Below, piece after piece: positions 4,677 to 39,695 of a stretch of DNA of 64,000 nt. Made by a program: the position numbers and the translations under genes. Where the stretch lies: assembly GCF_016592555.1 (NCBI RefSeq), contig NZ_AP014546.1:310001-374000 (forward strand), given 5' to 3'. Numbering within the stretch: the first letter of the stretch is position 1; every line of letters starts with the position of its first letter. The stretch comes from Neptunomonas japonica JAMM 1380 (GTDB lineage: Bacteria > Pseudomonadota > Gammaproteobacteria > Pseudomonadales > Balneatricaceae). The notes under the pieces were generated by a model. That model did no database searches, was not told the DNA's origin, and saw only the letters and a program-made list of their open reading frames with translations.

Positions 4677-4694
4677 AATTAATACCTGCAGAAA

Positions 4695-6523: not shown

Positions 6524-6578
6524 AATCGTGATTTTATTATGTTAACGCGATTATAGTTTTTAAAAGGAGAGTTGCAGC

Positions 6579-7745: not shown

Positions 7746-7760
7746 TACGGATTAACGTAT

Positions 7761-7801: not shown

Positions 7802-7807
7802 TGTCTG

Positions 7808-9079: not shown

Positions 9080-9084
9080 GCTGA

Positions 9085-10083: not shown

Positions 10084-10101
10084 GCTGTGCTCCAGCTCGG
10101 G

Positions 10102-11068: not shown

Positions 11069-11100
11069 AGTTATTAGAATTCAGGGTTCTCAGGTTTAAG

Positions 11101-11667: not shown

Positions 11668-11705
11668 GATAAAACCACATATAATGAAAAACGGACTACT
11701 AAGGT

Positions 11706-12668
11706 TTAGTACAGTTGTGTGGTTTTCTCAAATTTCCAGCTGCGAATGATCTCAAGAACATCCGTATTTTTTCTCATTTCAGTACTGAACGGCTGAAAGG
11801 GGGAGGCCAGTTTGACGATGCGAATAGCAGCATCATCTAAAGTTTTGCTGCCAGATGATTGCGTAATTTCGATGCTTTTTAAACCGCCGTCAGGAAGAAT
11901 CGCAACAAGTACACGTAATGTGCCATACAGTTTTTGGCGTCTTGCTTCTTCTGGATAGTTCATATTGCCTATCATCTCAATACGTCGGCGCCAATTATCA
12001 AGATAGATGGCATCTTCATGAATTGTCGTTGAAACAGAGGATAAACGGCGCGTTTTAGGGCGTTTAGCAAACTGCTCTTGTTGCATCTTTATTTGTGCTT
12101 GAAGGTTGGCAATTTCTAGGCTTTTAGCCAGTAGGGAAGTTGATTGTCCGGTTCTTGGTTGTGCTACTGTTGGTTTGCTTTTACGAGGTTTTGTCGATGC
12201 CTTTTTTTTCTTCTTTTCAGCAGTCGTTGTCACGACCTTGCGTTTACTTTTAGCCGCTTGGTTTGAGTCACCTTTATTGGTTATAGGTTTTTCTAGTACT
12301 TGTCTAGCCTCTGGTGTGGGTTCTGGCTGTTTGGTGGGCTGCGTTGGGCGAGCGGACTGATTGCGAATTTTATTGTCTTGAAACGTTGATCGCTCAGTTG
12401 TTGATGGTAAACGTTTCTCTTCAACGGTACCGCTAGCAAGTTGGTTCGCTTGTGCAAGAAAGTCTGTTTTTTCAGGAGGCTTCTCTACAGCATATTGAGC
12501 GAGTGTTATTTCAAGTGTTTGTACCGCAGGTGTCGAAGATGGACTGATGAATGAGCTACCCAAAATAAGTACAGCATGTAATGCAACCGCCATAAAAAGC
12601 GTAAAACCCAACCGGTCAGTTGCGCTGATAATAGAGCTTGCTGGTATATTTTGAGTAGCACCAGACAC
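11706..12668 (-). CDS. tonB: TonB family energy-transducing protein (TonB3-like)
   Basis: A 320-residue inner-membrane anchored protein. A single membrane helix lies at about residues 20-38 (LGFTLFMAVALHAVLILGS), followed by a long Pro/Lys/Thr-rich periplasmic spacer (about 95-175). A short region with coiled-coil character ends in KMQQEQFAKRPK. The C-terminal TonB domain begins MNYPEEARRQKLYGTLRVLV. The start is a GTG whose G overlaps the gshB stop TAG (TAGTG). In P. aeruginosa the TonB at this locus (TonB3) affects twitching motility, which fits the nearby pilTU; the functional link here is inference. Confidence 0.9.
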   Translation of the reverse strand: MSGATQNIPASSIISATDRLGFTLFMAVALHAVLILGSSFISPSSTPAVQTLEITLAQYAVEKPPEKTDFLAQANQLASGTVEEKRLPSTTERSTFQDNKIRNQSARPTQPTKQPEPTPEARQVLEKPITNKGDSNQAAKSKRKVVTTTAEKKKKKASTKPRKSKPTVAQPRTGQSTSLLAKSLEIANLQAQIKMQQEQFAKRPKTRRLSSVSTTIHEDAIYLDNWRRRIEMIGNMNYPEEARRQKLYGTLRVLVAILPDGGLKSIEITQSSGSKTLDDAAIRIVKLASPFQPFSTEMRKNTDVLEIIRSWKFEKTTQLY

Positions 12669-13621
12669 TATGGCTTGTTCCGTTTCTCTTCGATGGCATT
12701 CATTAGCTGCATTCCAATATCTAAACCAAATTGGTTATCTAGCTCGCGAATACAAGTTGGGCTAGTGACATTAATTTCAGTCAGGTAATCACCAATAACA
12801 TCTATCCCGACAAATAATAACCCTTTCTCTTTGAGTGTAGAACTTACCTGGTCGCATATCCAGCGATCACGATCTGTCAGAGGGCGGCCTTCGCCTTTTC
12901 CTCCGGCTGCTAAGTTGCCTCGGGTTTCTCCTGCCATCGGTACGCGCGCTAAGGCGTAAGGAATGGCTTCGCCATCAATGATCAATATACGTTTGTCGCC
13001 GTTTACTATCTCAGGAAGATATTTCTGCGCCATAATCGTCTGTTTGCCGTGCTCGGTAAGCGTTTCTATAATAACGCCCAAGTTCACACCATCTTCTTTG
13101 ATTCTGAAGATGGATGCTCCACCCATACCGTCGAGTGGTTTGAAAATGACATCTTTATGCTCTGCATGAAATGCCCGCAGCAGTGTTTCATCTGATGTAA
13201 CCAAAAGTGGAGGGCAGCATTGTGGAAAATGCGTGGCAAAAAGCTTCTCGTTAAAATCACGTAAGCTTTGTGTGCGGTTAACAATCATGGTTCCTTGTGC
13301 TTCAGCCATTGCTAAAAGCTGAGTGGTATAAAGGAACTCGTTATCAAATGGAGGGTCTTTTCGCATTAAGATGACATCGAGAGATGAAAGATCTTCAGCT
13401 TGGTATTCGCCTCGCGTAAAAAATGCATCAGGATCCATCGCAACACTTAACGGCGCCATGTTGGCTTTAGCTTTTCCGTCATGCAGGAACAGATGCTTTT
13501 GCTCCATGTACCATAACTCCCAGCCTTTTTGTTGAGCAGCCCATAGCATGGCAAGAGAACTATCTTTTTTGTAGTTAATCCCATCAATGGGGTCCATAAC
13601 AATACCGACTTTTAATGTCAT
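12668..13621 (-). CDS. gshB: Glutathione synthetase GshB
   Basis: A 317-residue ATP-grasp ligase that adds glycine to gamma-glutamylcysteine. The N-terminal MDPIDGINYKKDSSLAMLWAAQ is typical of proteobacterial GshB. ATP-grasp elements are VIFKPLDGMGGASIFRI near residue 160 and VNVTSPTCIRELD at the C-terminus, and the glycine-rich loop is RGNLAAGGKGEGRPL. It is transcribed with tonB through a 1-base stop/start overlap. Confidence 0.97.
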   Translation of the reverse strand: MTLKVGIVMDPIDGINYKKDSSLAMLWAAQQKGWELWYMEQKHLFLHDGKAKANMAPLSVAMDPDAFFTRGEYQAEDLSSLDVILMRKDPPFDNEFLYTTQLLAMAEAQGTMIVNRTQSLRDFNEKLFATHFPQCCPPLLVTSDETLLRAFHAEHKDVIFKPLDGMGGASIFRIKEDGVNLGVIIETLTEHGKQTIMAQKYLPEIVNGDKRILIIDGEAIPYALARVPMAGETRGNLAAGGKGEGRPLTDRDRWICDQVSSTLKEKGLLFVGIDVIGDYLTEINVTSPTCIRELDNQFGLDIGMQLMNAIEEKRNKP

Positions 13622-13685
13622 TCTCTGCTGTCCTCTAGGTCATTTGCCTGATGAGTTTAATCTAAATAGATGGTGCTGGGTTAAC

Positions 13686-14414
13686 CTAACTTAAGTCGCC
13701 CCATAAATACTGTAATATGGCCTGCGCGGCAACCGGTGCGGTTTCTGTGCGCATTACCCTAGGACCAAATGCCACTGGTTTAAAGCCTGCGGCAAGAGCT
13801 ATCTCTACTTCTGCTTCGCTAAGACCGCCTTCTGGGCCTATTAGTAACGCGATGGAGGTGGGACGCTCCAGCTCTTCAAGTGGTTGCTCTGTATGATGGT
13901 GTAACACGAGCTTTAAATCAGCTTCAGTATTGTCTAACCATTGTTGTAATGGTTGGATAGGAGCGATAACAGGAAGCTCATTCCGAAGTGATTGCTCGCA
14001 TGCGCTAATCGCTACTTGTTGCCAGTGTTTAGTGCGCTTGTCTTGGCGGTCATTGTTTAAGCGAACCTCACAGCGTTCGGTAAACAGTGGTGTCATGCAG
14101 TGCATGCCTAGCTCAGTGGCTTTTTGGATAGCGTAATCCATTCGTTCGCCACGAGATATTGCTTGACCAATATGAATTTGTAATGGGCTAGTGCGTGATT
14201 GTGAATGCTCAGAGATGACGGTTACATCGACATGACGTTTATCCACGCGTTCCAGTGTACAAAGAAACTCACTACCATAGCCGTTAAACAAGGTGATGTT
14301 GTCACCTGCTTTCATTCGTAGCACGCGGGATACATGCTGTGTTGTTGCATCACTTAGCGAATAAGTTTGCCCTGTATGTAATTCACAAGGCTCAAAGAAT
14401 CTAGGTATACGCAT
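13686..14414 (-). CDS. rsmE: 16S rRNA (uracil1498-N3)-methyltransferase RsmE
   Basis: A 242-residue SPOUT methyltransferase. The N-terminal PUA-like domain includes HVSRVLRMKAGDNITLFNG. The C-terminal trefoil-knot SAM site shows ALLIGPEGGLSEAEVEIA and the final FGPRVMRTETAPVAAQAIL. It methylates U1498 of 16S rRNA. The gene lies just upstream of gshB with a 64-base spacer, an arrangement also common in Enterobacteria. Confidence 0.96.
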   Translation of the reverse strand: MRIPRFFEPCELHTGQTYSLSDATTQHVSRVLRMKAGDNITLFNGYGSEFLCTLERVDKRHVDVTVISEHSQSRTSPLQIHIGQAISRGERMDYAIQKATELGMHCMTPLFTERCEVRLNNDRQDKRTKHWQQVAISACEQSLRNELPVIAPIQPLQQWLDNTEADLKLVLHHHTEQPLEELERPTSIALLIGPEGGLSEAEVEIALAAGFKPVAFGPRVMRTETAPVAAQAILQYLWGDLS

Positions 14415-14466: not shown

Positions 14467-16587
14467 TCAGTCTACTTCTATAATAAGATTTTGATTGTCG
14501 AGCAGTTCAATAAGCTTCTCGTTTTTCAATGGTCTGCTTAATAAGAAGCCTTGTGCTATATCGCAGTTAATCGAGCGTAAGATGTTTAGCTGCTCTACAG
14601 TTTCAACTCCTTCCGCGACTACTTTTACATTGAGTCCTTGAGCCATGTGAATAATGGCTTCTACAATTTTTTTATCGCCTTTGCTGTTTTCTAAATCCTG
14701 GATAAATGATTGATCTATCTTCACCTTATTGATTTGTAAGTTACGGATGCGGCTTAATGAAGAGTAGCCCGTACCAAAATCGTCAATTGAGATACTAATG
14801 CCCATGTGTTGTACCGTCTGGATTTTTTCTTGTAGCATCTCTAAAGAGGCGATCAGCACCCCCTCGGTAAGCTCTAGTTCTAAAGACTCCAATGGGATGT
14901 TGTATTCTTCGGTTGCTTCATGGATAAGCTGCTGAAGATCGCTACGCATGAATGTTAAACCAGAAAGGTTAACGGCAAGCTGAGGAACGTCGAGGCCCAT
15001 TTGCCTCCATTGCTTGATTTGCTTAGCCGCGGCTTTTAAAACCCAGTTATCTAAACGAGTCACTAGCCCGCTTTGTTCTGCAAATACAACAAAAGTTGCG
15101 GGTGAAATAAAGCCGCGTTCAGGGTGCTCCCAACGCAAGAGCACTTCAGCTGAGATGATTTTATTGGTGTGTAAGTCATGCAATGGTTGAAATACGAGGT
15201 AGAACTGATCTTCTTCGATGGCTTGCTGGATGTCTTTCCACAGAATTAGTCGCTCATCTAATGCAAAGGTTTTCAACTGGTTGAAAAACATGTAATCAAG
15301 TTCAAGACGGCGTGCTTCGCTTAGTGCTTCTTCTGCATGGCTTAAAAGTGCTAACTCTTGATCTGCGTCATCGGGCGCAATACTGATGCCTACGCGCGAT
15401 TGAAAAGATAGTTGCTGACCTTCAACCGTTGAAGGCCGCATGATCTCAGTTTGAATTGCATTGATGAGAATGTTTATTTCACGAAGGTCTGACAACTCTG
15501 GGCGTATGACAGTAATAATGTCATCACTGTAGCGTGCCAGTAGGTCGTCACTATGAAGTGTTTTCTTTATTCGGTTGGAAATGTCTATCAAAATTATATT
15601 GCAATAATCTGTTCCCCATTGTGCCAGAATATCTCGAAGCAAAGGCAGCTTGATGGTGATCACTGCACACTTTTTGCCATTGGGTAAAATGGCTAAAAGG
15701 CGAGCGAGTTCATCCTCTAGTGCTTTGCGTGATAGTAGGTGAGTGACAGGGTCGTAAGTGGCAAGGTGCTGGGCTTGAATGCTGGCTTGTTTGAGATCTT
15801 CATTTTCAATGGTTTGTTGGCGAAAGTGCACCAGTGCTTTGGCAATGCTGCCAATTTCGTCGTGGCGCTCGTTGTCGGTAATTTCTTCTGTAATATACCC
15901 TGATGTAAGGCGTTGTATCTGGTCGACAAGTCTGCCCGTAGGTGCTGTGATGCTATTTGCGATACGCCCTGAAACAAGGTATGCCAAGAGGCCTGCAAAA
16001 GTAGCTAACAGTACGAAGGTTATGTGGCGGGAAAAATAAGTATGCTGAATATCATTAAGGTAAATGCCTGAGCCCACAATAAGGTCGGTACCCGGGATGA
16101 GCTTCGCATAGCTAAGCTTTTGAGTGGGTGTCGCGCCCTCTGATTTTGGCCAAAAGTAGGTTGTAAATACCTCTCCTTTTTGACGTACGCCTTCTAGTAT
16201 TGGTTGTGTGATGTAGTCGCCATTGTGGTCTTTGAGCAGGCTGGCATCACGTCCATTAATGTTTGTTAGTATTGGGTGAACAATATTAATGCCAGCGAGA
16301 TCGATAATAAAAATATAGTTGTTATCATCATAGCGAAGAGTGTGTGCAAGTTGTTTTGTAAAGGAGAGCTTTTCTTCTTCAGAAAGCGTGTGGTTATCTG
16401 AAGATAGCACAGGCTTTAATTGACTAATGGCACTATCGACAACGCTTTTGATAATGCTTTTACGAGAGTCAATTAAATCATCATGTGAATACTTGAGTGC
16501 AATAAGAGACACTGCCGCAATACTGAACATTATCAGTGCGACTAGAATAAACAGTTTCCAGCGAATGCTGATGTCTTGTAAACGCAT
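14467..16587 (-). CDS. Membrane c-di-GMP signalling protein: Cache-HAMP-degenerate GGDEF-EAL
   Basis: A 706-residue sensor. The first membrane helix is at about 11-31. A periplasmic Cache domain spans about 35-185 (NNYIFIIDLAGINIVHP is the single-Cache signature), the second helix is near 190-207 and HAMP follows to about 260. The GGDEF-like domain (about 280-435) has RYSDDIITV where RYGGDEF is expected, so cyclase activity is unlikely. The EAL domain keeps EVLLRW, DDFGTGYSSL, KIDQSFI and VAEGVET, so it is probably an active c-di-GMP phosphodiesterase. Two juxtaposed regulators of surface behaviour (pilTU and this gene) share the region, but no link is shown. Confidence 0.93.
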   Translation of the reverse strand: MRLQDISIRWKLFILVALIMFSIAAVSLIALKYSHDDLIDSRKSIIKSVVDSAISQLKPVLSSDNHTLSEEEKLSFTKQLAHTLRYDDNNYIFIIDLAGINIVHPILTNINGRDASLLKDHNGDYITQPILEGVRQKGEVFTTYFWPKSEGATPTQKLSYAKLIPGTDLIVGSGIYLNDIQHTYFSRHITFVLLATFAGLLAYLVSGRIANSITAPTGRLVDQIQRLTSGYITEEITDNERHDEIGSIAKALVHFRQQTIENEDLKQASIQAQHLATYDPVTHLLSRKALEDELARLLAILPNGKKCAVITIKLPLLRDILAQWGTDYCNIILIDISNRIKKTLHSDDLLARYSDDIITVIRPELSDLREINILINAIQTEIMRPSTVEGQQLSFQSRVGISIAPDDADQELALLSHAEEALSEARRLELDYMFFNQLKTFALDERLILWKDIQQAIEEDQFYLVFQPLHDLHTNKIISAEVLLRWEHPERGFISPATFVVFAEQSGLVTRLDNWVLKAAAKQIKQWRQMGLDVPQLAVNLSGLTFMRSDLQQLIHEATEEYNIPLESLELELTEGVLIASLEMLQEKIQTVQHMGISISIDDFGTGYSSLSRIRNLQINKVKIDQSFIQDLENSKGDKKIVEAIIHMAQGLNVKVVAEGVETVEQLNILRSINCDIAQGFLLSRPLKNEKLIELLDNQNLIIEVD

Positions 16588-29269: not shown

Positions 29270-29830
29270 ATGATGGAAGATAAACAACGATTAGATAAAA
29301 CTGCTTGGATCAACGCGGGCTTTAGAGCGCTTTGTGTGAATGGACCTGCGGCGTTAAAGGCTGAGCCTTTGGCGCGAGAGCTGGGCGTGAGCAAGGGCTC
29401 TTTCTATTGGCATTTTGCCAACTTGGCTGCCTTTCGAGAGGCGATGATAGAGCACTGGGTGGCGGTGGCGACAAGAGGCATTATTGAGCTTGTAGAAGCG
29501 CATAGCAAAAATCCAGATGAACGCTTGCGGTATTTGGTGCATTTGTCGACTGAGCCGCCACCAGAGGCAGTGGGAGGTCGGGGAGCAGAAGGGGCTATTC
29601 GTTGTTGGGGTCGAGCTGATTTAGTGGTGGCGGAGCAATTGCGTGCAGTGGACGCTGCTCGGCTGGACTTTTGTTCAGAGCAATTTTTGCAGCTCAATTT
29701 CAGCGCTGCAGATGCACGGTTAAGGGGGCGGTTGCTCTATGCATCTTTGATTGGTCTAGAGGACCTTGATCAGTCAGGGCTGGCAGTGTTGCGCGATGAT
29801 TTACAGGCATCTTTGGGTGTTTTGTTGTAG
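29270..29830 (+). CDS. TetR/AcrR family transcriptional regulator
   Basis: A 186-residue regulator. The helix-turn-helix is at about residues 12-50 (AWINAGFRALCVNGPAALKAEPLARELGVSKGSFYWHFANL), with a variable ligand domain behind it. It is divergent from two membrane-protein genes, with two copies of the same palindrome between them, so autoregulation and repression of that pair are expected. Two ATGs in tandem start the gene; no clear ribosome binding site precedes them, and the candidate promoter would give an almost leaderless mRNA. The ligand is unknown. Confidence 0.93.
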   Translation: MMEDKQRLDKTAWINAGFRALCVNGPAALKAEPLARELGVSKGSFYWHFANLAAFREAMIEHWVAVATRGIIELVEAHSKNPDERLRYLVHLSTEPPPEAVGGRGAEGAIRCWGRADLVVAEQLRAVDAARLDFCSEQFLQLNFSAADARLRGRLLYASLIGLEDLDQSGLAVLRDDLQASLGVLL

Positions 29831-29947
29831 GGGCTTTGTTTAGTGATATTGAGAAGGCTGCGTCTGTTTTATAAAAGTGCACCTTGACCCATAGACTTGT
29901 GCCGTACCATACTTTTACCTATAGATTTTAGAGGTGGTTAATCACAT

Positions 29948-31411
29948 ATGCCTTTTCATTTATTCCACCTTGAAGCAGGCAGTAGCCGAACCTTACAGCA
30001 GCAGATCCGCTCTCAGCTAACGGCAGCTATTTTGAACGGCAATATTCCTGTGGATATGGCGTTGCCTTCAAGCCGTAAACTGTCTGAGTTGCTGGGTGTT
30101 TCACGTAATACAGTCATTCGCGTTTATGAGCTGATGCTCAGTGAAAATGTCATTATTTCGCGTGAGCGTAGTGGCTACTACATCAATCCAGAATACCGCG
30201 TTCAAGCAGTCCTTCCTCGCAGTGAGGCGAGTGGCAATGATAAAGTGCATTGGCAACGGTTCTTACACCAAAAACCCAGTGAACAACGCAATATTGTTAA
30301 ACAAAGCCACTGGCAGCGTTACTCCTACCCTTTTGTTTATGGGCAATTCGATCCACAAAGTTTTCCCGTGCAACAGTGGCGAGAGTGTTGTCGCGATTCA
30401 GTTACTGAAGCTGCGGTAGGTAATTGGGCATCTGATCAGCTGATGGACGACCCTATGCTGATTGAACATATTCAATCACATATTTTGCCCAGGCGAGGCA
30501 TATGGGCTAAACCTGAGCAGATTCTGATTACGGTTGGGGCGCAGCATGCTATTTATCTCGTATCACAGTTGGTGCTACGGCCTGGCGATACGTTTGGTAT
30601 TGAAGACCCTTGCTATGTGGATGTGCGTAATATTGCAGCAGCTCGTCCAGCAAACGTTGTACCAATCCCACTAGATAATGAAGGTTTGATAGTAGATGAG
30701 CGTTTGTCGGACTGCGATTGCATTTATGTCACGCCGAGCCATCAATTCCCCACGACGGTAACGATGACATTGGAGCGTCGTAAGCAGCTTTTATTAAAAG
30801 CCGCTGAAGATGACTTTTTGATAATTGAAGATGACTACGAAGCTGAAGCCAATTTCACCGGTACGCCGTGCCCCGCATTAAAAAGTATTGACCATGCCGG
30901 ACGAGTTGTTTATATCGGTAGCTTTTCTAAAACCTTGGCGCCAGGTTTACGGTTGGGCTACATGGTGGCAGATGAGGCGCTGATTAAAGAGGCACATGCC
31001 TTGCGGCGCCTAATGCTTCGCCAAGCGCCTATGAATAATCAACGTACGGTTGCACTATTTATTGCGCGGGGTTATTACGACGCGCTCATTAATCGCCAGA
31101 GCCTAATTTATAAAGAGCGTTGGCATCTCATGCAAAACGTATTAGCACGGCATCTGCCTAATAGTACTAATCCACCTACGTTTGGAGGTTCTTCATATTG
31201 GATTGAAGGGCCGGTTGAACTGGATTCTAGAAAGTTATCTGAGCTGGCTAGGGCGGACAGTATTTTAATTGAACCTGGAGAGGTTTATTACGCGCACGCA
31301 CCATTGCTAAATTGTTTTAAGCTGGGATATAGCTCGATCGCATCAGATAGAATTGAATCGGGTATCGATAGGCTAGCGCAACTAATTAATCGTCATTGGG
31401 GCGGTAGTTAA
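29948..31411 (+). CDS. MocR-type regulator (GntR winged helix fused to aminotransferase-like domain)
   Basis: A 487-residue protein. The N-terminal GntR winged helix (about residues 10-80) contains ALPSSRKLSELLGVSRNTVIRVYELM, followed by a class I aminotransferase fold from about 110. The PLP lysine is in GSFSKTLAPGLRLGY, and IIEDDYEAEANF is the other PLP motif. MocR proteins use bound PLP to sense amines or amino acids, usually controlling an adjacent gene. Here the next gene in the same direction is the semialdehyde dehydrogenase, with CTGGTT repeats between them. Effector unknown. Confidence 0.93.
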   Translation: MPFHLFHLEAGSSRTLQQQIRSQLTAAILNGNIPVDMALPSSRKLSELLGVSRNTVIRVYELMLSENVIISRERSGYYINPEYRVQAVLPRSEASGNDKVHWQRFLHQKPSEQRNIVKQSHWQRYSYPFVYGQFDPQSFPVQQWRECCRDSVTEAAVGNWASDQLMDDPMLIEHIQSHILPRRGIWAKPEQILITVGAQHAIYLVSQLVLRPGDTFGIEDPCYVDVRNIAAARPANVVPIPLDNEGLIVDERLSDCDCIYVTPSHQFPTTVTMTLERRKQLLLKAAEDDFLIIEDDYEAEANFTGTPCPALKSIDHAGRVVYIGSFSKTLAPGLRLGYMVADEALIKEAHALRRLMLRQAPMNNQRTVALFIARGYYDALINRQSLIYKERWHLMQNVLARHLPNSTNPPTFGGSSYWIEGPVELDSRKLSELARADSILIEPGEVYYAHAPLLNCFKLGYSSIASDRIESGIDRLAQLINRHWGGS

Positions 31412-31448
31412 AAATATGTTGTCTTGGCGTAATCTTTAACCGCTACGG

Positions 31449-31518
31449 CTGGTTATCTGGTTCCTTTTTCATTCTAAGGTGTGGTACCAGCTATTAGGGT
31501 TAAGTTAATAAACTGGTT
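31449..31518. promoter_or_regulatory. CTGGTT repeat cluster, candidate MocR operator
   Basis: Within the 223-base spacer between the MocR gene and mmsA, CTGGTT occurs at 31449-31454 and 31457-31462 (8-base step) and again at 31513-31518. An inverted version, GGTACCAG, is at 31483-31490. MocR proteins often bind two direct repeats plus an inverted one. Binding is inferred, not shown. Confidence 0.45.
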
Positions 31519-31634
31519 CTCTGCGATCATCCAATAGCCCCATACACTAGGGGTATTCTGAAATGGCGATACTATCGATGGTTGTTGAAAATACAGCCTC
31601 AGCTAGCTCGCTGAACGCATGAGGCTTGGTTACC

Positions 31635-33173
31635 ATGAGTGCAACGACTCCCTATTACAAAATTCGTGATTTTATTAATGGCGAATGGATTGAAAATAAT
31701 ACACTTGAAACTGCACCACTTTACAACCCATCTACAGGGGCGGTACTGGGTGAAGTGCCTTTAGGTAACGAGGAGTCTTCTCGTGCAGCTACCGCTGCCG
31801 CTGCACAAGCTTACCCTGCATGGCGCGACACTCCGCTACCTAAGCGTATGGATTATATCTTTGCTATGCATTCAGCTATGGTCGAGCGCAAAGAAAGCCT
31901 TGCTCAAGCGATTGCTATTGATCAAGCAAAGCATATCGCAGAAGCTCGAGGCGAAGTGCAGCGCGTTATTGAAATTATACAGATGGCTTGTACTATCCCT
32001 GCTTTGATTCAGGGCGAAACAGTTCCTAGTATCGCTAACAATATCAGTGGTCGTATTATTAAGGCGCCAATGGGAGTCTTTTGTGGTGTTGCACCGTTTA
32101 ATTTCCCTGCACTGGTATTTGGTTGGTTTATTCCGTTTGCTATCGGTGTTGGTAATACCTTTGTGTACAAGCCATCGACTGAGTCACCGTTGTTCATGCA
32201 AGGAATTATGGAGCTATTAACCTCTATTGGTTTGCCTCAAGGCGTGGTGAACATTGTGCACGGTGATCGTGAGGTTGTCGAAGCGTGGTATGACGATGAA
32301 AATGTAGCAGGTGTTTGTTTGGTTGGCTCGACACCGACGGCAAAAGCAATAGCGCAGGGGTGTGGGCGTAACGGTAAAAAAACGATGCTGCTCGGCGGTG
32401 CTAAGAACTTTTTGGCAGTGATGGATGATGCGCCGATGGACCTGTTAATTGAGAACGTTTTGATGTCAGGTTATGGCTCGGCTGGCCAGCGTTGCTTAGC
32501 GGTATCTAACATTGCCTGTGTTCCAGAGATTCACGATGAGTTTGTTACACGACTGTTAGCAGCTTCAGAAAATGTCACAGTAGGGGATGCTATGGATCCT
32601 GATGTTTTCATGGGACCTGTGATTTCTAAAGCGGCAAAAGAGCGTATCGAGAAATACATTCAAATTGGCCTAGATGAAGGCGCTACTCTTCTTTTGGATG
32701 GACGTAACCCTACAGTTTCTGCCGGCAATCAAGATGGCTATTACGTAGGCCCAACAATATTTACGGATGTAACACCTTGCATGCAGATCGCTAAAGAAGA
32801 GATCTTTGGGCCTGTACTAAGCATTATGAAAGTAGGTTGCATCGACGGTGCATTGCGAATGATTAAGAACCATCCGATGGGTAATGGTGCTTGTATCTTT
32901 ACTCAAAATGCATACAACATTGAAAAATTTATCAATGAAGCTGATGTGGGTATGGTTGGCGTTAACGTAGGCATTTGTGCTCCTCATCCTTATATGCCAT
33001 TTGGTGGTATCAAAGATTCATTGGTCGGTAACAACAAAGTACAGGGTAAAGAAGGCATAAACTTCTTTACGCAAAACAAAGTAGCTACTGTGCGTGTGGT
33101 TGACCCTAAAGAGGGGCAAGTTGCCGCGCCTGCATCAACAAACAGTGATGTTCGAAGTTGTGTTGCTAGTTAG
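31635..33173 (+). CDS. mmsA: CoA-acylating (methyl)malonate-semialdehyde dehydrogenase MmsA
   Basis: A 512-residue aldehyde dehydrogenase of the MmsA group. Seen: FINGEWIENN, MGVFCGVAPFNFPALVFGWF near residues 145-165, and the catalytic Cys in GSAGQRCLAVS near 285. EEIFGPVLSI and the C-terminal FFTQNKVATVR follow. These enzymes convert methylmalonate or malonate semialdehyde to propionyl-CoA or acetyl-CoA in valine, inositol or beta-alanine breakdown. The ATG at 31635 is chosen over an in-frame TTG 9 bases before it. No partner transaminase or 3-hydroxyisobutyrate dehydrogenase is adjacent. A terminator follows. Confidence 0.92.
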   Translation: MSATTPYYKIRDFINGEWIENNTLETAPLYNPSTGAVLGEVPLGNEESSRAATAAAAQAYPAWRDTPLPKRMDYIFAMHSAMVERKESLAQAIAIDQAKHIAEARGEVQRVIEIIQMACTIPALIQGETVPSIANNISGRIIKAPMGVFCGVAPFNFPALVFGWFIPFAIGVGNTFVYKPSTESPLFMQGIMELLTSIGLPQGVVNIVHGDREVVEAWYDDENVAGVCLVGSTPTAKAIAQGCGRNGKKTMLLGGAKNFLAVMDDAPMDLLIENVLMSGYGSAGQRCLAVSNIACVPEIHDEFVTRLLAASENVTVGDAMDPDVFMGPVISKAAKERIEKYIQIGLDEGATLLLDGRNPTVSAGNQDGYYVGPTIFTDVTPCMQIAKEEIFGPVLSIMKVGCIDGALRMIKNHPMGNGACIFTQNAYNIEKFINEADVGMVGVNVGICAPHPYMPFGGIKDSLVGNNKVQGKEGINFFTQNKVATVRVVDPKEGQVAAPASTNSDVRSCVAS

Positions 33174-33194
33174 TAATACTGTGTAGCCTCCATT

Positions 33195-33220
33195 GGCCGA
33201 TCAATTGATCGGCCTTTTTT
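33195..33220 (+). terminator. Rho-independent terminator after mmsA
   Basis: Perfect 20-base palindrome beginning GGCCGATCAA and ending TTGATCGGCC, followed by T6. It separates mmsA from the pxp operon. Confidence 0.88.
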
Positions 33221-33293
33221 GTGTTCATAATTTGAAAAATCATCTGATAAATAAAATTGATCAGTTGTAACAATTATTTTTCATTAGACACGG

Positions 33294-33334
33294 AACTACT
33301 TTACAGAGCAAGCTATGGGTATCCGAAAGTAGTT
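33294..33334. promoter_or_regulatory. Inverted repeat upstream of the pxp operon
   Basis: AACTACTTT at 33294-33302 and AAAGTAGTT at 33326-33334 form perfect 9-base arms separated by 23 bases, about 30 bases before the first gene of the operon. It could be an operator or an mRNA hairpin; no T-run follows, so it is not a terminator. Confidence 0.45.
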
Positions 33335-33362
33335 TAAAAAGTAAACAGATTAGAGGCATGCT

Positions 33363-34151
33363 ATGGACGTTAATATCTCTCCCTACGACCTTCGTCAGTT
33401 AATTCGCAGTGGTGAATTTACGGGTAATACCTCCGGTTATTCACAAGGATTTGTGCAGGGTAATTTGGCTATTATGCCAAAAGAGTGGGCGAACGATTTT
33501 TTACAGTTTTGTCAGTTAAACCCTAAGCCGTGTCCAGTTATTGGCATGTCCTCAAACCCTGGTGACTTCCTATTACCTGATCTGGGTAAAGACCTAGACA
33601 TCCGTAGTGATATTCCGCGCTACCGCATTTATGAAAACGGCCAGCTTACTCAAGAAGTAACAGATGTCCGTGAATTTTGGCGTGATGATCTCGTCACTTT
33701 TCTTCTGGGTTGCTCTTTTTCATTTGAAGAATCATTGATTGCCGATGGTCTAGAAGTGCGCAATATCACCGAAGGTGTCAACGTGCCTATGTATCGCACT
33801 AATATTGACTGCCGTCCTGCAGGACGCTTCAGTGGCACGACAGTTGTGAGCATGCGACCAATGAAACCAAAAGATGCGATTCGTGCGATTCAGATCTGCA
33901 CACGTTTCCCATCTGTACATGGCGCACCGCTACATTTTGGTAACCCTGCTGATATCGGTATCGATAATATTAACCAGCCTGATTTTGGGGATGCGGTAAC
34001 GATCAAAGAAGGTGAAGTGCCAGTGTTTTGGGCATGTGGTGTTACGCCTCAAGTGGCGATAGAGCAAGCACGTCCATCTTTCTGTATTACTCATAGCCCT
34101 GGCCATATGTTGGTTACGGATATTCCTAACAGCCATCTGGCGATTATGTAA
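33363..34151 (+). CDS. YcsI/UPF0317 (DUF1445) putative hydro-lyase, homologue of the N-terminal half of DGLUCY
   Basis: A 262-residue cytosolic protein. Seen: [28 protein letters not shown] near residues 20-47, [16 protein letters not shown] near 140, and the C-terminal [14 protein letters not shown]. This matches UPF0317/DUF1445, usually annotated as putative hydro-lyase. The same domain forms the N-terminal half of mammalian D-glutamate cyclase. Its own reaction is not established. It opens a five-gene run with pxpA, pxpB, pxpC and a DUF4392 gene, 20 bases before pxpA, which argues for a role in D-glutamate/5-oxoproline metabolism. Confidence 0.88.
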
Positions 34152-34171
34152 TTTCTGCTGGGAGGTTGAAA

Positions 34172-34933
34172 ATGTCTTTGAAATTGAACTGTGATTTAGG
34201 TGAAAGCTTCGGTTCTTGGAAAATGGGAATGGATGATGCGGTAATGCCGCATATTGATCAGGCTAATATTGCGTGTGGTTTTCATGCGGGAGATCCGCTT
34301 GTTATGCAAAAAACACTACAGCTTGCTAAAACGCATGGCGTCAGTATTGGTGCTCATCCGGGTTACCCCGACCTAGTAGGATTTGGACGTCGATCTGTTA
34401 AAGCCAGTGACGCTGAGATTCAAGCGCTGATGTTGTATCAGATTTCTGCTTTAGATGGCATGGCGGCATCCATGGGGTTGTCTTTGGCGTATGTGAAGCC
34501 ACACGGTGCTTTATATAATGACATGATGGCTGACGAAGCGGTACGTAAAAGTATTATGCAAGCGGTTGCGAGTTATCATCGTCCCATCGTTTTGATGTTG
34601 CAGGGCACGCCTGACGCAGTAAAACACCGTGCTGAAGCAGCCCAATGGGGCTTGAATCTGTGGTTTGAAGCCTTCGCTGATCGTTGTTATGCCGATGATG
34701 GCAAGCTGCTATCACGTACAAAAGAAGGAGCGGTGCATAACCGAGAGAAAATGTTGGCGCAGGTTATACAGTTGGCTAATACCGGTACGGTTACCAGTGT
34801 CAGTGGTCATACCTTAAACCTGCATGCTGATACCTTATGTGTGCATGGTGATAATCTTGCCGGTGTGCAAGCTATCGAGGAGATTCGTCAATTGATCTCT
34901 GCAGATGGTGATTCTGGAACGACAGAAAAATGA
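34172..34933 (+). CDS. pxpA: 5-oxoprolinase subunit A PxpA (LamB/YcsF family)
   Basis: A 253-residue protein with the LamB/YcsF signature LNCDLGESFGSWKMGMDD at the N-terminus. IACGFHAGDPLVMQKTL, GAHPGYPDLVGFGRR, YVKPHGALYNDM and the final TLCVHGDN follow. With PxpB and PxpC it forms the prokaryotic ATP-dependent 5-oxoprolinase that opens 5-oxo-L-proline to L-glutamate. The ATG at 34172 is chosen because GGGAGG lies 6 bases upstream. It overlaps pxpB by 4 bases (ATGA). Confidence 0.95.
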   Translation: MSLKLNCDLGESFGSWKMGMDDAVMPHIDQANIACGFHAGDPLVMQKTLQLAKTHGVSIGAHPGYPDLVGFGRRSVKASDAEIQALMLYQISALDGMAASMGLSLAYVKPHGALYNDMMADEAVRKSIMQAVASYHRPIVLMLQGTPDAVKHRAEAAQWGLNLWFEAFADRCYADDGKLLSRTKEGAVHNREKMLAQVIQLANTGTVTSVSGHTLNLHADTLCVHGDNLAGVQAIEEIRQLISADGDSGTTEK

Positions 34934-35607
34934 ATGTTGAAATTGCAGGCGAAAACTCCCTAATTATTTATTTTGGCGAAACCACTGATCCTCTTGTGTC
35001 GGCTCAAGTACAGCAAGCAGCGGCAAGGTTAGAGACAGTGATGGCAGATGCCTTGATAGATATGGTGCCTTCCTATGCATCGCTGTTGGTGATTTATGAT
35101 CAGCATAAAACTGATCATTACGCAGTGCGCCGCCATATTCGTGAAACACTTGCGCAGCTTGGCCATACGGCGCAGCAAGCCGGGCAGGTTATCACCCTGC
35201 CTGTCTATTACAGTGCTGAATCAGGCCCTGATCTTGAGGCGTTGGCGGAGAATGCAAAGCTGACGGTCGCCGAAGTAATCAGAATCCATAGTGAGATGGA
35301 ATACCGCGTGTATGCTATCGGCTTTGCGCCAGGCTTTGCTTATTTAGGTGAGGTTGATCCTCGTATTGCTGCTGCTCGTTTAAGTACGCCTCGCCTTAAG
35401 GTGCCTCGTGGTGCTGTGGCTATTGCTGACCGCCAGACGGCGGTATACCCCGCCGTATCTCCGGGCGGCTGGAACCTTATTGGATTGTGCCCAACGCGCA
35501 TGTTTAATCCTGAAGCGGATCCTACCATGCCTGTTCAGGTCGGAGATCGAGTACGCTTTTCGCCGATTGAGCGCGCTGAGTTTTTAGCATTGGGAGGTGA
35601 GCTATGA
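34930..35607 (+). CDS. pxpB: 5-oxoprolinase subunit B PxpB
   Basis: A 225-residue carboxyltransferase-domain protein (allophanate hydrolase subunit 1 type). The family motif is complete: YAIGFAPGFAYLGEVD near residue 127, LKVPRGAVAIADRQTAVY, and SPGGWNLIGLCPTRMF. It is thought to form the ATP-dependent phosphorylating complex with PxpC. It overlaps both neighbours by 4 bases, so the three subunits are translationally coupled. Confidence 0.95.
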   Translation: MNVEIAGENSLIIYFGETTDPLVSAQVQQAAARLETVMADALIDMVPSYASLLVIYDQHKTDHYAVRRHIRETLAQLGHTAQQAGQVITLPVYYSAESGPDLEALAENAKLTVAEVIRIHSEMEYRVYAIGFAPGFAYLGEVDPRIAAARLSTPRLKVPRGAVAIADRQTAVYPAVSPGGWNLIGLCPTRMFNPEADPTMPVQVGDRVRFSPIERAEFLALGGEL

Positions 35608-36542
35608 GTGGTTTTTTAGTTAAGCAACCTGGTTTACTAACCCTTATCCAAGATGCCGGACGTTATGGCCAGCATCGCATCGGCTTGACGACCGGCGGGC
35701 CGCTGGATGGTGAAGCATTTAATTGGGCTAACCGTTTGTGCGGTAATGAACTAGATGCATCAGGTTTAGAAGTTAGTATTGGTGGGCTTGTGCTAGAGGC
35801 ACAAGTTGATACTGCTTTGGCTGTTACTGGCGCAGATATGCCTTTCAAGATTAATGGTCAAGATGTGGCCCGTTGGTGTACTCACAAGGTAAAAGCAGGC
35901 GACAAAATAGAATTGGGGTTTGCTACTTCGGGCTCGCGTGCTTATTTGACGGTAGCAGGTGGCTTTAATGTTGACCAGAGCTTTTCCAGTACGGCAACTG
36001 TTACACGTGAAGCGGTCGGTGGATTGAGTGGCGATAAGCTAAAACAGGGCGATCTACTGCCTTGTCAGGCGCATTCACCTACTGAGCTTTGGGCACTGCC
36101 TGAATCTGAGCAACCTGATTATAACGCTGATGTCACTTTGCGAGTGATTCTAGGCTATCAGCATCAAACATTTGACAGTGTGCAGCAGCGTTTATTCTTT
36201 TCCAGTGAGTATGCGTTATCTAGCCGCGCTGACCGCATGGGTTTTCGTTTAGAGGGGCAGCCGGTAAAGTCTCAGCTTAACGGTATTCTTTCTGAAGGGA
36301 TTTGCCATGGTGCTATTCAAATTCCTGCAGATGGGCAGCCTATTGTCCTCTTAAATGATCGCCAGACGATTGGCGGTTACCCAAAAATTGGTTCCGTTAT
36401 TTCGCGTGATACTGCTCATCTATCACAAAGAATGCCGGGAGCGAAGATCCGTTTTGAAGAGATTAGCCTGGAGAAGGCTCATAACATCAATTGCTTGGCT
36501 CAACGACGGTTTATCAACATGTCGTTACAACAAATAGCCTGA
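35604..36542 (+). CDS. pxpC: 5-oxoprolinase subunit C PxpC
   Basis: A 312-residue carboxyltransferase-domain protein (allophanate hydrolase subunit 2 type). Seen: LLTLIQDAGRYGQHRIGLTTGG near residue 11, GPLDGEAFNWANRLCGN, TVAGGFNV, and LSSRADRMGFRLEGQPV and VLLNDRQTIGGYPKIG toward the C-terminus. With PxpA and PxpB it hydrolyses 5-oxoproline. It is followed after 28 bases by the D-glutamate cyclase homologue. Confidence 0.95.
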   Translation: MSGFLVKQPGLLTLIQDAGRYGQHRIGLTTGGPLDGEAFNWANRLCGNELDASGLEVSIGGLVLEAQVDTALAVTGADMPFKINGQDVARWCTHKVKAGDKIELGFATSGSRAYLTVAGGFNVDQSFSSTATVTREAVGGLSGDKLKQGDLLPCQAHSPTELWALPESEQPDYNADVTLRVILGYQHQTFDSVQQRLFFSSEYALSSRADRMGFRLEGQPVKSQLNGILSEGICHGAIQIPADGQPIVLLNDRQTIGGYPKIGSVISRDTAHLSQRMPGAKIRFEEISLEKAHNINCLAQRRFINMSLQQIA

Positions 36543-36570
36543 GCTTGACCCTAATTCCGGAGAATAATAA

Positions 36571-37425
36571 ATGACTAATCAATGTAGATTAAATGAAGCG
36601 GCTTTGAGCTTGCAAATTGAAGATGCGCTAGTAGCAAGAAACTTACGTGGCATGAAAACGGTACAACCTGCTTTGCAGACGGGGTATTACTTGCGTGCTG
36701 CGCGTATCCTTAATAAATGCAAAGGGCATGTGTTGATTGGTACTGGCTTTCCGGTGATTGATACCTTTGAAACCGATGGCCCTGTGGGTGCAATTGCCCT
36801 TTACAATGCGTTAGAAACGTTGGGAGCAACCCCTGTTATTGTGTGTGGCCCTCCTGTCTCTCAGGCATTGATGAAAAATTATCGCGTCCATGAAATCCGT
36901 GTCGGTGAGCACCAAGAGCGCATGTTAGAAGCGTTTAAAGCCTTGTACCACTTTCAGCCCGATGCTGTGCTGTCTATTGAGCGACCTGGGCAAGCAGCAG
37001 ATGGCGGCTATTACAACATGCGTGGCGAAAGCATCAGTGAACGTACGGCGTGCTTTGATACATTTATCAACAATGCGAAGTGTCCAACAATTGGCATTGG
37101 TGATGGCGGTAATGAAATTGGTATGGGGAATATTACCGATGCATTGAAAGATTTAGATATTGTCTCGGCTACGACGCAAGTTGATGAGTTGTTGATTGCA
37201 GACGTCTCTAACTGGGGAGCCTATGGCATTATGGCTATGTTAAGTGTGATGAATAACATCGACTTGTTAGCAGCAGTTAAACCACGTGACATTTTAGAAT
37301 ATCTTTCTAGCCTTGGCAGTGTCGATGGTGTGACACGGCAAAACGAATTAACGGAAGACGGGTTAGACCCATGTGAAGGTGAAGCGGTGTTACAGCAGCT
37401 TCGCCAGATCATTGGTATGCAGTAA
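36571..37425 (+). CDS. D-glutamate cyclase family protein (DUF4392), homologue of the C-terminal half of DGLUCY
   Basis: A 284-residue protein with the DUF4392 pattern: VLIGTGFPVIDTFETDGPVGAI near residues 54-75, SIERPGQAADGGYYNMRG near 137, the highly conserved GIGDGGNEIGMGNI near 176, and LLIADVSNWGAYGI near 207. In mammals the protein carrying this domain converts D-glutamate to 5-oxo-D-proline. Placed after pxpABC, it most likely makes or handles a 5-oxoproline. The name rests on family recognition; enantiomer and direction are unproven. It converges with a LysR gene 21 bases away, without a visible terminator. Confidence 0.88.
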   Translation: MTNQCRLNEAALSLQIEDALVARNLRGMKTVQPALQTGYYLRAARILNKCKGHVLIGTGFPVIDTFETDGPVGAIALYNALETLGATPVIVCGPPVSQALMKNYRVHEIRVGEHQERMLEAFKALYHFQPDAVLSIERPGQAADGGYYNMRGESISERTACFDTFINNAKCPTIGIGDGGNEIGMGNITDALKDLDIVSATTQVDELLIADVSNWGAYGIMAMLSVMNNIDLLAAVKPRDILEYLSSLGSVDGVTRQNELTEDGLDPCEGEAVLQQLRQIIGMQ

Positions 37426-37446
37426 TACTGTTTGTTATAGCTCTGC

Positions 37447-38361
37447 TTATTTCCCCGCGCTAAGGTTTCTCGCTTGCGCTGGGAACTGCATAATAGCCCG
37501 GCTGCTATCTGCTAGTAAGCTGGGTAATGTGCGGTCATCATCTAGTCGCCAGCTGTAGCAAAAAGCTAATTCTGGTGGATCTGTTTCGGTACTTAATGCG
37601 ATAAGCTCTTTGTTTTGTATTGATTGCTCCACTAAAGGTCTTGGCAGCAGAGCGATACCTACACCTTGGCGGATAAGGTTGAGCATATTAGCAACGGAGC
37701 TACAGGTGTGGATGACGGGTTGCTCATCTAATGTGTTAAACAACTCTTGTAAGTAATGCCAAGGGCGGCTGTCTCGGGGAAAACTCAATATTGGCGATGT
37801 TGCTAGAGCTTGCGTCGTACAACTTTCTTTATCAGTGAGAGGGCTTTCGGGTGTGGCGACCCAGCATTGTGGATAACTACAAAGTGGGTCGATGACTAGG
37901 TTGGGCGGGATGCTTTGTTCGGCAACCATCAATGCGAAATCAATCTGATGATTTTGTAACTGGCGAATCAGCGTAGGGGTCACGTCACTGGTCAGTTCGA
38001 ATGAGATCAGAGGGTGTAATTCTTGCCAATGTTTTAGTAATGCTGATAACCACAAGTGCGCTAGCGTATCAGCAATACCAATGCGTAATGTGCCTTTTTG
38101 TGGTTTATCGTGGCTGACTTGAGCTTTCATCTCTTGGCTAATAGCGATAAGTTTTTCTGCATAAGGTAAAAGCTGGCTCCCCCATGCCGTAATTTTTGTG
38201 CCGCTTTTATCACGAATAAACAGCTGGACACCTAGCTCTTCTTCCAGTGCAATGATGCGTGCGGAAATAGCGGGCTGGCTGGCATGCAGCTGCTGTGAAG
38301 CGGCATGAAAACTTCCAAGACGAGCTACTTTAATAAATGTAGAAAGGTTGCGTAGGCGCAT
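37447..38361 (-). CDS. LysR family transcriptional regulator
   Basis: A 304-residue regulator. The N-terminal helix-turn-helix is STFIKVARLGSFHAASQQLHASQPAISARI (about residues 7-36), and the substrate-binding domain follows from about 90. The ATG at 38361 is preferred; an in-frame GTG at 38376 is possible, and neither has a strong ribosome binding site. It lies convergent to the D-glutamate cyclase gene and divergent from the D-amino-acid aminotransferase gene, making the latter a likely target. Confidence 0.9.
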   Translation of the reverse strand: MRLRNLSTFIKVARLGSFHAASQQLHASQPAISARIIALEEELGVQLFIRDKSGTKITAWGSQLLPYAEKLIAISQEMKAQVSHDKPQKGTLRIGIADTLAHLWLSALLKHWQELHPLISFELTSDVTPTLIRQLQNHQIDFALMVAEQSIPPNLVIDPLCSYPQCWVATPESPLTDKESCTTQALATSPILSFPRDSRPWHYLQELFNTLDEQPVIHTCSSVANMLNLIRQGVGIALLPRPLVEQSIQNKELIALSTETDPPELAFCYSWRLDDDRTLPSLLADSSRAIMQFPAQARNLSAGK

Positions 38362-38828
38362 AGAGTTTTTAAACACTGCAAGAAGATGAGTGCTGTAGAG
38401 TATATTGCTACAACAAGCGGTTTAATAGTGCTGAGGCTTATGGAATGTTTGTCAAGGTTTTCAATTCAGCTCTCTTTCACTTACTAGGATATTCTTGTTA
38501 GGATGGAGAATATTCTCTAATGATAATGAGAGTATTACGACTTTGGAGTGAGTTGATGAGCGGGTTTATTCTCTGTTCATAAATCTTTTTTTAGGCTTAA
38601 AGTCTGTTTTTTATTGTTTTTAGGTGTTTTTTGTTTAATTGGTTGGGTGCTTGCAAAGAATCCACTTTTCGTAATATAAACCGTCTTCAATTTTATTAAT
38701 CAGTGAAGCAGTCTTGCTTTCAAGAACGTCTTCAACAAATACTCTGCAGACTTGGCAACTCTCATATTGGAACTGCCTTTCGTTCGTCCGCAAGTACCCA
38801 TAGTAAGTACAATAAGAGGTAACTACAT
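38362..38828. promoter_or_regulatory. LysR-dat intergenic region with palindromic element
   Basis: No convincing gene is seen in 467 bases. A perfect 12-base palindrome GAGAATATTCTC lies at 38506-38517, with a related half site GATATTCT at 38488-38495. GATAAT at 38522-38527 is a plausible -10 with a weak -35 (TTAGGA, 38498-38503), so the palindrome would sit in the spacer. T-rich tracts occur at 38588-38640. The dat leader would be about 300 bases. Confidence 0.4.
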
Positions 38829-39695
38829 ATGAGCATCGCATACTTAAACGGTGAATATCTTCCGTTAGAAGAGGCACGCATTTCACCGCTAGATCGCGGA
38901 TTCTTGTTTGGTGATGGTATCTATGAAGTAATCCCATATTACAATGGCAAGTCTGTTGGTTTGGTTCCTCATATTGAGCGTATGATTGATGGCTTAGCGT
39001 CTGTTGAAATCAAATGCAAAAAATCTGCTGATGAATGGAAAGTTCTACTGGACGATCTGATTGCTCGTAACGAAGGCGCTACTAACAACTTGGGCGTGTA
39101 TGTACATGTATCACGCGGCACAGATGTTAAGCGTTTTCATGCATACCCTGAAAATGTAGAACCAACCATCTTTTGTTTTACATTCGCTATTAAAGATCCT
39201 GAACCAGTTGATCGTGAAAAGGTACATGCCTACACGGTAACGACTTCAGAAGATCTTCGCTGGAAGAGATGTCATATCAAATCTACAGCGTTGTTGGGTA
39301 ATGTTATGCATTTTCAACAAGGCCATGCATCAGGTAATAGTGAGTGCTTGTTGTATAATGCTAATAATGAATTAACTGAAGGCAGTTCTGTCAATGCTTA
39401 CATCGTCAAAGACGGTGTAGTGATTACGCCTATCCAAGACAATCAGATTCTGCCGGGTATTACGCGTCGGATTATCATTGATAGCTTGGTTGCTGATGGC
39501 TCAATCAAGGTTGAAGAGCGTAATGTGACTATGGATGAAGTATACAGCGCTGATGAAGTTTGGATCAGTAGCTCTTCTAAAGAGATCGCTCCAATTACTC
39601 AGATTGATGGTAAGCCAGTAGGTAATGGAAAAGTAGGTCCTGTTTGGGAAGCTGCTTTTCGTATCTACACTGATGCTAAATTCACTCATAGCTAA
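38829..39695 (+). CDS. dat: Class IV aminotransferase, D-amino-acid (D-alanine) aminotransferase-like
   Basis: A 288-residue PLP enzyme. Seen: AYLNGEYLPLEEARISPLDRGFLFGDGIYEVIPYYNGK at the N-terminus (the DRGFLFGDGIYE motif), the PLP lysine in RCHIKSTALLGNV near residue 150, and LTEGSSVNAYIVKDG near 185. Dat enzymes swap the amino group between D-alanine, D-glutamate and 2-oxo acids. The separate branched-chain (IlvE) and aminodeoxychorismate lyase groups share the fold, but the N-terminal pattern and length fit Dat. AAGAGG lies upstream of the ATG. The D-glutamate cyclase gene nearby supports a D-amino-acid role. Confidence 0.87.
   Translation: MSIAYLNGEYLPLEEARISPLDRGFLFGDGIYEVIPYYNGKSVGLVPHIERMIDGLASVEIKCKKSADEWKVLLDDLIARNEGATNNLGVYVHVSRGTDVKRFHAYPENVEPTIFCFTFAIKDPEPVDREKVHAYTVTTSEDLRWKRCHIKSTALLGNVMHFQQGHASGNSECLLYNANNELTEGSSVNAYIVKDGVVITPIQDNQILPGITRRIIIDSLVADGSIKVEERNVTMDEVYSADEVWISSSSKEIAPITQIDGKPVGNGKVGPVWEAAFRIYTDAKFTHS

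Follow-up and report, generated by a model that had tools for sequence, protein, structure and literature searches.

The vertebrate protein DGLUCY (C14orf159 / 9030617O03Rik) joins members of the DUF1445/UPF0317 and DUF4392 families (PMC5132392, PMC5339696). It converts D-glutamate to 5-oxo-D-proline and is described as the first enzyme of mammalian D-glutamate metabolism to be identified (PMC5339696). The two domains have been suggested to carry out linked steps (PMC5132392), and the available text of these papers assigns neither of them a step of its own. TON_0340, a Thermococcus DUF4392 protein, shares 36% identity with the C-terminal domain of human DGLUCY, and the available text of the same paper states that a DUF1445 partner was not found in archaea (PMC5132392). 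Among bacteria, pxpA, ycsG (mntG), ycsI, kipI, kipA (pxpBC) and kipR lie in one operon in Bacillus subtilis (PMC10448178), pxpABC of Corynebacterium glutamicum has a transporter, pxpT (PMC13274462), and a table of gut-microbe genes credits the human protein (GLUCM_HUMAN) with 0 full-length homologues and 6 split ones in neighbouring genes (PMC12547972). Here we analyse an operon in a stretch of 64,000 nucleotides of contig NZ_AP014546.1 (positions 310,001 to 374,000 of the forward strand; we call this whole stretch the window), in which a UPF0317 gene and a DUF4392 gene flank pxpABC-like genes. Judged from its sequence, the locus probably encodes a D-glutamate / 5-oxoproline module. The association of UPF0317 with pxpABC, the vertebrate fusion and split DGLUCY homologues are already known; the five-gene unit, its transaminase-like partner, the neighbourhoods with N-acetylmuramic acid (MurNAc) genes or MurL, and the fusions to MurD described below were not found in the titles and abstract beginnings of the open-licence PMC papers listed.

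The operon consists of five contiguous open reading frames (ORFs) on the plus strand, all of which exceed their Pfam gathering scores. The first (33363-34151, 262 residues) encodes a UPF0317 protein (PF07286, 225.7 bits against a cut-off of 25; NF003969, 417.7 against 324). Homology links this protein to B. subtilis YcsI and to the N-terminal portion of DGLUCY. Its gene is followed by three 5-oxoprolinase-like genes. The PxpA-like subunit (LamB/YcsF; 34172-34933) matches PF03746 with 308.6 bits and exceeds the subfamily model NF003816 (346.8 against 213), and it stays below three PxpA equivalog models; its ATG start at 34172, preceded by GGAGG, is better than a TTG at 34166. The PxpB-like subunit (34930-35607) matches PF02682 with 232.1 bits and TIGR00370 with 160.9 (cut-off 145.55), and the PxpC-like subunit (35604-36542) matches PF02626 with 286.3 bits. 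The fifth ORF (36571-37425, 284 residues) encodes a DUF4392 protein (PF14336, 239.2 bits against 27.9), a homologue of the C-terminal part of DGLUCY and of TON_0340 that is 98% identical to the copy in Neptunomonas japonica, a close named relative; for UPF0317 the corresponding identity is 99%. PxpA and PxpB, and PxpB and PxpC, overlap by 4 bases, while 20 bases separate UPF0317 from the pxpA ATG and 28 bases separate PxpC from DUF4392. The preliminary description of this locus had claimed a tight run of these genes with overlaps inside pxpABC and both halves of DGLUCY as separate genes, and both claims were borne out. Its naming of PxpC stood at the level of the domain model (TIGR00724, 262.2 against 230.2) and not at that of the PxpC equivalog (NF045499, 223.3 against 500), and for this reason we write PxpC-like. 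The three subunits are predicted to form an ATP-dependent 5-oxo-L-proline hydrolase.

We scored the presence and arrangement of these genes across the window's family, in a set of 99 genomes to which the window's own belongs; the genomes are related, and the counts take in shared descent. DUF4392 was present in 56 of the 99 genomes, UPF0317 in 67 and PxpA in 89. A search for the co-occurrence of the three families had been proposed beforehand; the same-strand order UPF0317-PxpA-DUF4392 within 10 kb was found in 51 of the 56 DUF4392 genomes. Elsewhere the unit was incomplete or split: PxpA lay near DUF4392 with UPF0317 on another contig (G056), UPF0317 lay near DUF4392 with PxpA elsewhere (G081), and in G061 and G075 DUF4392 sat on contigs of ∼3.5 kb, with neither UPF0317 nor PxpA found in either genome. 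UPF0317 co-occurred with DUF4392 in 54 of 56 genomes and was present without it in 13; the dependence of DUF4392 on UPF0317 is therefore much stronger than that of UPF0317 on DUF4392. Thirteen of the 17 UPF0317 copies that were not near DUF4392 had PxpA within 10 kb. Two genomes (G007, locus L116; G022, locus L171) carry a second UPF0317 copy beside pxp genes, with no DUF4392 in the stretch and the full unit elsewhere in the genome.

The preliminary description ended the unit at 37425. The five genes stood, and this extent stops short of a conserved class IV aminotransferase gene (38829-39695, plus strand; PF01063, 149 bits), from which the operon is separated by a minus-strand LysR-type regulator gene (37447-38376) recognized in a domain search of the window's proteins. 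Among the 55 other family loci, the commonest layout was UPF0317-PxpABC-DUF4392-LysR-aminotransferase with LysR on the same strand (29 loci); LysR matches below 45% identity and MocR matches were dropped before this tally. LysR was on the operon's strand at 31 of these loci and on the opposite strand, as in the window, at 12. The aminotransferase was not in the fetched stretch at 5 of the 55. The arrangement is thus more than chance, and the aminotransferase gene belongs to the conserved neighbourhood.

Using the window's aminotransferase as a query against the 99 genomes, we obtained two groups of matches, one at 355 bits or more and one at ∼254 bits or less. The strong group, for which we coined the label DAT-G, comprised 57 genomes; one member, assigned by hand, is a fragment in G093 that matches with 193.8 bits and 69% identity across 136 residues. 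DAT-G accompanied DUF4392 in 55 of the 56 DUF4392 genomes: both were present in 55 genomes, DUF4392 only in 1, DAT-G only in 2 and neither in 41. The two genomes with DAT-G only are 71% and 87% complete. In 53 of the 55 the two genes shared a contig. They then always had the same orientation, with DUF4392 first and the aminotransferase downstream of it, and in 51 cases they were within 4 kb of each other. The aminotransferase directly follows DUF4392 in Pseudoalteromonas, G332, G224, G081 and others, with a 4-base overlap between them on pTHAF3_a. The nearest solved structures to the 38829-39695 product are D-amino acid aminotransferases (PDB 4pbc, 4m0j and 1daa). Residues Y32, R102, H104 and K151 were kept in 55 of 55 aminotransferase copies (58 loci searched); we take the tyrosine and the R-x-H motif to be the carboxylate trap of D-amino acid transaminase and the lysine to be its catalytic residue. 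The protein scores below the curated D-amino-acid transaminase cut-offs of NCBIfam (TIGR01121, 231.9 against 277.45), and we therefore call it D-amino-acid-transaminase-like.

Beyond the family, we examined 398 genomes of the phylum Pseudomonadota, of which 10 contained DUF4392 and 64 UPF0317. Eight of the 10 DUF4392 genomes also contained UPF0317, and the two genes were linked in six (the window's, G332, G224, G417, G445 and G425). In G417 and G445 the UPF0317-DUF4392 pair stands alone, with no pxpABC between. The G417 pair is surrounded by NamZ, a kinase for MurNAc and N-acetylglucosamine (GlcNAc) fused to MurNAc-6-phosphate etherase, and a sodium:solute symporter, with a NagZ-like glycoside hydrolase of family GH3, a MurR/RpiR regulator and a flavin/iron-sulfur (FAD/FeS) oxidase as further neighbours. 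Within NCBIfam only the etherase exceeds its curated cut-off; the cluster looks like one for the catabolism of MurNAc, a cell-wall sugar, and D-glutamate would be freed there too. The G445 pair adjoins a D-cysteine-desulfhydrase-family protein and an ORF that resembles aspartokinase, as named from its start sequence only; the genome that carries this locus (L104) gave no MurI above cut-off (best 29 bits) and no MurL match. In G425 (L105), a 3573-residue open frame (3680-14401, minus strand) with two DUF4392 domains and a DUF4781 domain lies ∼170 bases downstream of the UPF0317 open frame (14573-15640, minus strand).

In both genomes of the phylum set with DUF4392 and no UPF0317, DUF4392 adjoins a homologue of MurL (G155, L112 12580-14944; G206, L113 8754-13711). 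These homologues score 435 and 267 bits respectively, both below the model's cut-off of 700. In G155, DUF4392 lies 13 bases upstream of the MurL homologue, given an ATG start, and in G206 it forms a run with the MurL homologue and MurD. MurL was present in 19 of the 398 genomes (9 above cut-off) and in only these two of the 10 DUF4392 genomes. An overlap of 2 is weak as statistics, so the evidence is the adjacency in both genomes.

Natural fusions connect the same families. We searched with the window's UPF0317 joined to its DUF4392 and examined the best 120 of 2732 matches; the joined query favours fusions, so the counts are not frequencies. Both domains were present in 71 of the 120: 55 were DUF4392-UPF0317, 10 were UPF0317-DUF4392 (at least one of them from a eukaryote data set), and 6 had a MurD-like part between DUF4392 and UPF0317 (P0128, P0133, P0153, P0161, P0165 and P0173). 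The two domain orders suggest at least two separate fusion events. The central segment of all six triple fusions aligns with the MurD model (441 positions) from 1-2 to 296-299, scoring 183-196 bits against a cut-off of 212. The last MurD domain, which we take to be the amino-acid-binding one, is missing and UPF0317 stands in its place. A separate protein, P0350 (830 residues), combines Mur ligase domains with PF26298/PF26299, which are also the domains given for MurL-like matches. D-glutamate is a cell-wall amino acid, and independent lines point to it: the G417 MurNAc cluster, the MurL adjacency, and the fusions, including the six with MurD-like domains.

The two DGLUCY-type proteins of the window carry conserved candidate catalytic residues. 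The DUF4392 protein matches TON_0340 with 116 bits, and its residues E67, D69, E137, D178, E182 and D263 correspond to the TON_0340 metal ligands E59, D61, E115, D157, E161 and D246. All six acidic ligands were invariant in an alignment of 34 DUF4392 sequences. In a wider blast mapping, which did not cover D263, they were kept in 199 of 199 (E67 and D69), 201 of 201 (D178), 200 of 201 (E182) and 192 of 201 (E137) sequences. In UPF0317, C117, C225, H186, H244 and R165 were invariant in 115 of 115 sequences and C57 in 114 of 114. Cofactor-independent two-cysteine racemases are marked by two invariant cysteines, and UPF0317 has them, which is suggestive only. Its relatives in the PDB are 2pif and 3db9. 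Foldseek and VIA-align 2 each listed 50 structural matches, and no racemase was among them; the nearest were UPF0317 structures, then MJ0159. These listings give a racemase fold no support and do not exclude one. A UPF0317 match was found on 240 plasmid records, 93 of them from Klebsiella.

We propose the following scheme. UPF0317 and DUF4392 would together convert D-glutamate to 5-oxoproline, with DUF4392 as the probable Mn2+-dependent ring-forming part, and PxpABC would spend ATP to open 5-oxoproline to glutamate. Because UPF0317 accompanies PxpA even without DUF4392, it most likely acts on 5-oxoproline, and it may invert the D form into the L form, which PxpABC is known to use. The transaminase-like protein would link D-glutamate with 2-oxoglutarate and with D-alanine/pyruvate. 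In the cell, the module would salvage D-glutamate, along with other D-amino acids channelled through it, as L-glutamate and 2-oxoglutarate; the source would be the turnover of peptidoglycan or the cell walls of other organisms. We infer how UPF0317 and DUF4392 share the work, the direction of flow, each catalytic step at this locus and the inversion of 5-oxoproline by UPF0317. The window's genome has one glutamate racemase, MurI. The preliminary description had proposed that the operon recovers D-glutamate through 5-oxoproline, and this finds partial support: the chemistry of D-glutamate and 5-oxoproline is the best supported, by the gene order, the transaminase-like gene, the peptidoglycan neighbours, the MurD-like fusions and the metal site. 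UPF0317 itself may be a racemase, a hydro-lyase or even the cyclase. The gap that it saw between 5-oxo-D-proline and an L-specific prolinase may be narrowed by the transaminase-like gene, because D-glutamate can also leave via its product.

A sharper version of this scheme, which we put forward tentatively and consider unlikely to hold in full, makes UPF0317 a cofactor-free 5-oxoproline racemase acting through its invariant cysteines and DUF4392 a Mn2+ D-glutamate cyclase. With PxpABC they would form an ATP-driven one-way converter of D- to L-glutamate, fed by a dedicated D-amino-acid transaminase. If so, vertebrate DGLUCY would be what remains, in fused form, of a bacterial module for recycling the cell wall. 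The DUF4392-MurD-UPF0317 fusions would be a version tied to cell-wall synthesis.

Several observations weigh against a D-glutamate / 5-oxoproline module. In the window, no transporter or peptidoglycan gene adjoins the operon, the minus-strand LysR gene stands between it and the aminotransferase, and the latter falls under the transaminase cut-offs. The family counts are uncorrected for common descent, and near relatives inflate them. The genes are also not always together: UPF0317, PxpA and DUF4392 lie on different contigs in G014, DUF4392 and UPF0317 are unlinked in G141 and G237, G155 and G206 have DUF4392 with neither UPF0317 nor PxpA, the Pseudoalteromonas units have no PxpB or PxpC at the locus, and L102 and L111 have no PxpA there. 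Alphaproteobacterial plasmids carry DUF4392 paralogues (25-37% identity; L180, L181 and L182) that adjoin a threonine/serine dehydratase with RidA, an Asp/Glu racemase family protein, and an arylmalonate decarboxylase with a tripartite ATP-independent periplasmic (TRAP) transporter, and no UPF0317 or Pxp gene was found in these stretches. A natural fusion of DUF4392 with MurL was looked for and is absent from the best 120 of 697 matches. Finally, only one DUF4392 protein in the cited literature, TON_0340, was assayed by itself; it was reported to be a weak Mn2+ phosphatase with AMP as its best substrate and a very low rate, and D-glutamate goes unmentioned in the available text (PMC5132392).

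We weighed four other explanations. One, which we think improbable, is scavenging of both hands of 5-oxoproline with the flow reversed: PxpABC would open 5-oxo-L-proline to L-glutamate, UPF0317 and DUF4392 would open 5-oxo-D-proline to D-glutamate, and the transaminase-like protein would pass the latter on to 2-oxoglutarate, with no need for a racemase. At one locus (L117, Pfam-checked) UPF0317 lies between a LysR gene and a TRAP transporter that is followed by PxpABC, with DUF4392 absent; L115 is laid out in the same way. DctP proteins that bind pyroglutamate have been described (PMC12344293), and DAT-G offers D-glutamate an exit. However, DGLUCY is reported to run from D-glutamate to 5-oxo-D-proline (PMC5339696), and the peptidoglycan clusters are less well explained by scavenging. 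It also counts against scavenging that lactam opening by 5-oxoprolinases normally needs ATP, whereas neither DUF4392 nor UPF0317 has an ATP-binding domain that Pfam recognizes.

A similarly improbable explanation would make UPF0317 alone the D-glutamate cyclase and DUF4392 a Mn2+ phosphatase or an accessory subunit that acts on a phosphorylated intermediate or by-product. Pfam does call PF07286 'D-Glu_cyclase' (many database records still name the two families 'putative hydro-lyase' and 'DUF4392 domain-containing protein'), DUF4392 resembles the DHH/RecJ phosphoesterases, and the phosphatase activity of TON_0340 would fit. However, its very low rate would not (PMC5132392). UPF0317 is also commoner than DUF4392 in the phylum, most of its family copies away from DUF4392 keep PxpA nearby, and DUF4392 adjoins MurL without UPF0317.

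We give somewhat less credence to the idea that PxpABC of the window's lineage takes 5-oxo-D-proline directly, without inversion, leaving UPF0317 as a chaperone, carrier or regulator. The three cysteines and two histidines kept in all 114-115 UPF0317 sequences look catalytic, and PxpB and PxpA reach their family cut-offs. Lastly, that nothing but chance or vertical inheritance has brought these genes together, in the absence of a common pathway, is very improbable: most counts do come from one family and are inflated by near relatives, yet fusions exist in both orders, DAT-G and DUF4392 match in 55 of 56 genomes, and linkage recurs in separate lineages. On the last point, the linked/unlinked label needs 8 changes on a quick UPF0317 tree, at least 4 of them forced by well-supported branches, although its deep forks have weak support and it contains several long branches. 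This tree holds 108 of 116 kept sequences, identical ones being merged and the window's truncated locus (L083) dropped; sequences with stops or fewer than 150 residues had been excluded beforehand. Most unlinked rows (L064-L090) are short loci from genomes without PF14336, except G141 (L080). Chance co-location was rejected on the conserved order, the DAT-G co-occurrence, the family layouts and the fusions.

The genes upstream of the operon appear to lie outside the module. A TetR regulator, a PdxR/MocR-type regulator and a methylmalonate-semialdehyde-dehydrogenase-like gene occupy 29270-33173 of the window; at the loci examined, none but the closest relatives had them upstream of the operon. 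Among the 55 other family loci, an aldehyde dehydrogenase gene was upstream in 2 (L138 and L140) and TetR in 1, in a tally for which some stretches end before the TetR position and from which MocR matches were excluded; MocR was present at 2 of 21 named loci. Because they are so rarely upstream elsewhere, we rejected all three as members. A terminator-like hairpin with 6 G-C pairs and a 6-T tail (33195-33214, plus strand) sets the operon apart from the aldehyde dehydrogenase gene. It is the richest in G-C pairs of the 7 such sites in 33100-39000, a number close to the 6.3 expected from shuffled sequence.

How does the locus compare with the known systems? We take B. subtilis YcsI to be a UPF0317 protein, and the B. 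subtilis genome matches PF07286. Its operon thus shares UPF0317 and all three PxpABC subunits with the window; it differs in having a Mn2+ importer and KipR and in having no DUF4392 (PF14336 was found in none of 14 control genomes, B. subtilis included), and the available text mentions no class IV aminotransferase (PMC10448178). As in PxpABC of E. coli, B. subtilis and C. glutamicum, the three subunit genes of the window are contiguous with short overlaps; unlike these, they lie between UPF0317 and DUF4392, have no adjoining transporter and include a PxpC below the equivalog cut-off. For the split GLUCM homologues of gut microbes, a single table row in the main text, the available text mentions no pxpABC, aminotransferase or peptidoglycan context (PMC12547972). 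The aminotransferase shares the R-x-H motif with D-amino acid aminotransferases (PDB 4pbc, 4m0j and 1daa), whereas it scores under their cut-offs and forms a separate subfamily that tracks DUF4392. TON_0340 (PDB 4dwz/4fc5/5gl2-4/5gkx) was studied alone and named a Mn2+-dependent phosphatase; DUF4392 of the window has a UPF0317 partner. Vertebrate DGLUCY, compared at the level of families, has the same two families in one fused polypeptide, whereas the window has them as separate genes that flank pxpABC, with the DUF4392 metal ligands kept. The window thus holds both domains of a DGLUCY-type enzyme (EC 4.2.1.48) above cut-off and the six metal residues, on two polypeptides; since the ORFs are separate (33363-34151 and 36571-37425), the pair is a split relative of DGLUCY and not its orthologue in architecture. 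The MurD-like fusions, the MurNAc cluster and the MurL neighbourhood give both families a concrete substrate hypothesis, cell-wall D-glutamate. Because the two domains that vertebrates fuse are separate genes in these bacteria, next to a predicted enzyme that uses the product and a transaminase-like one that would use the substrate, each domain can be tested alone.

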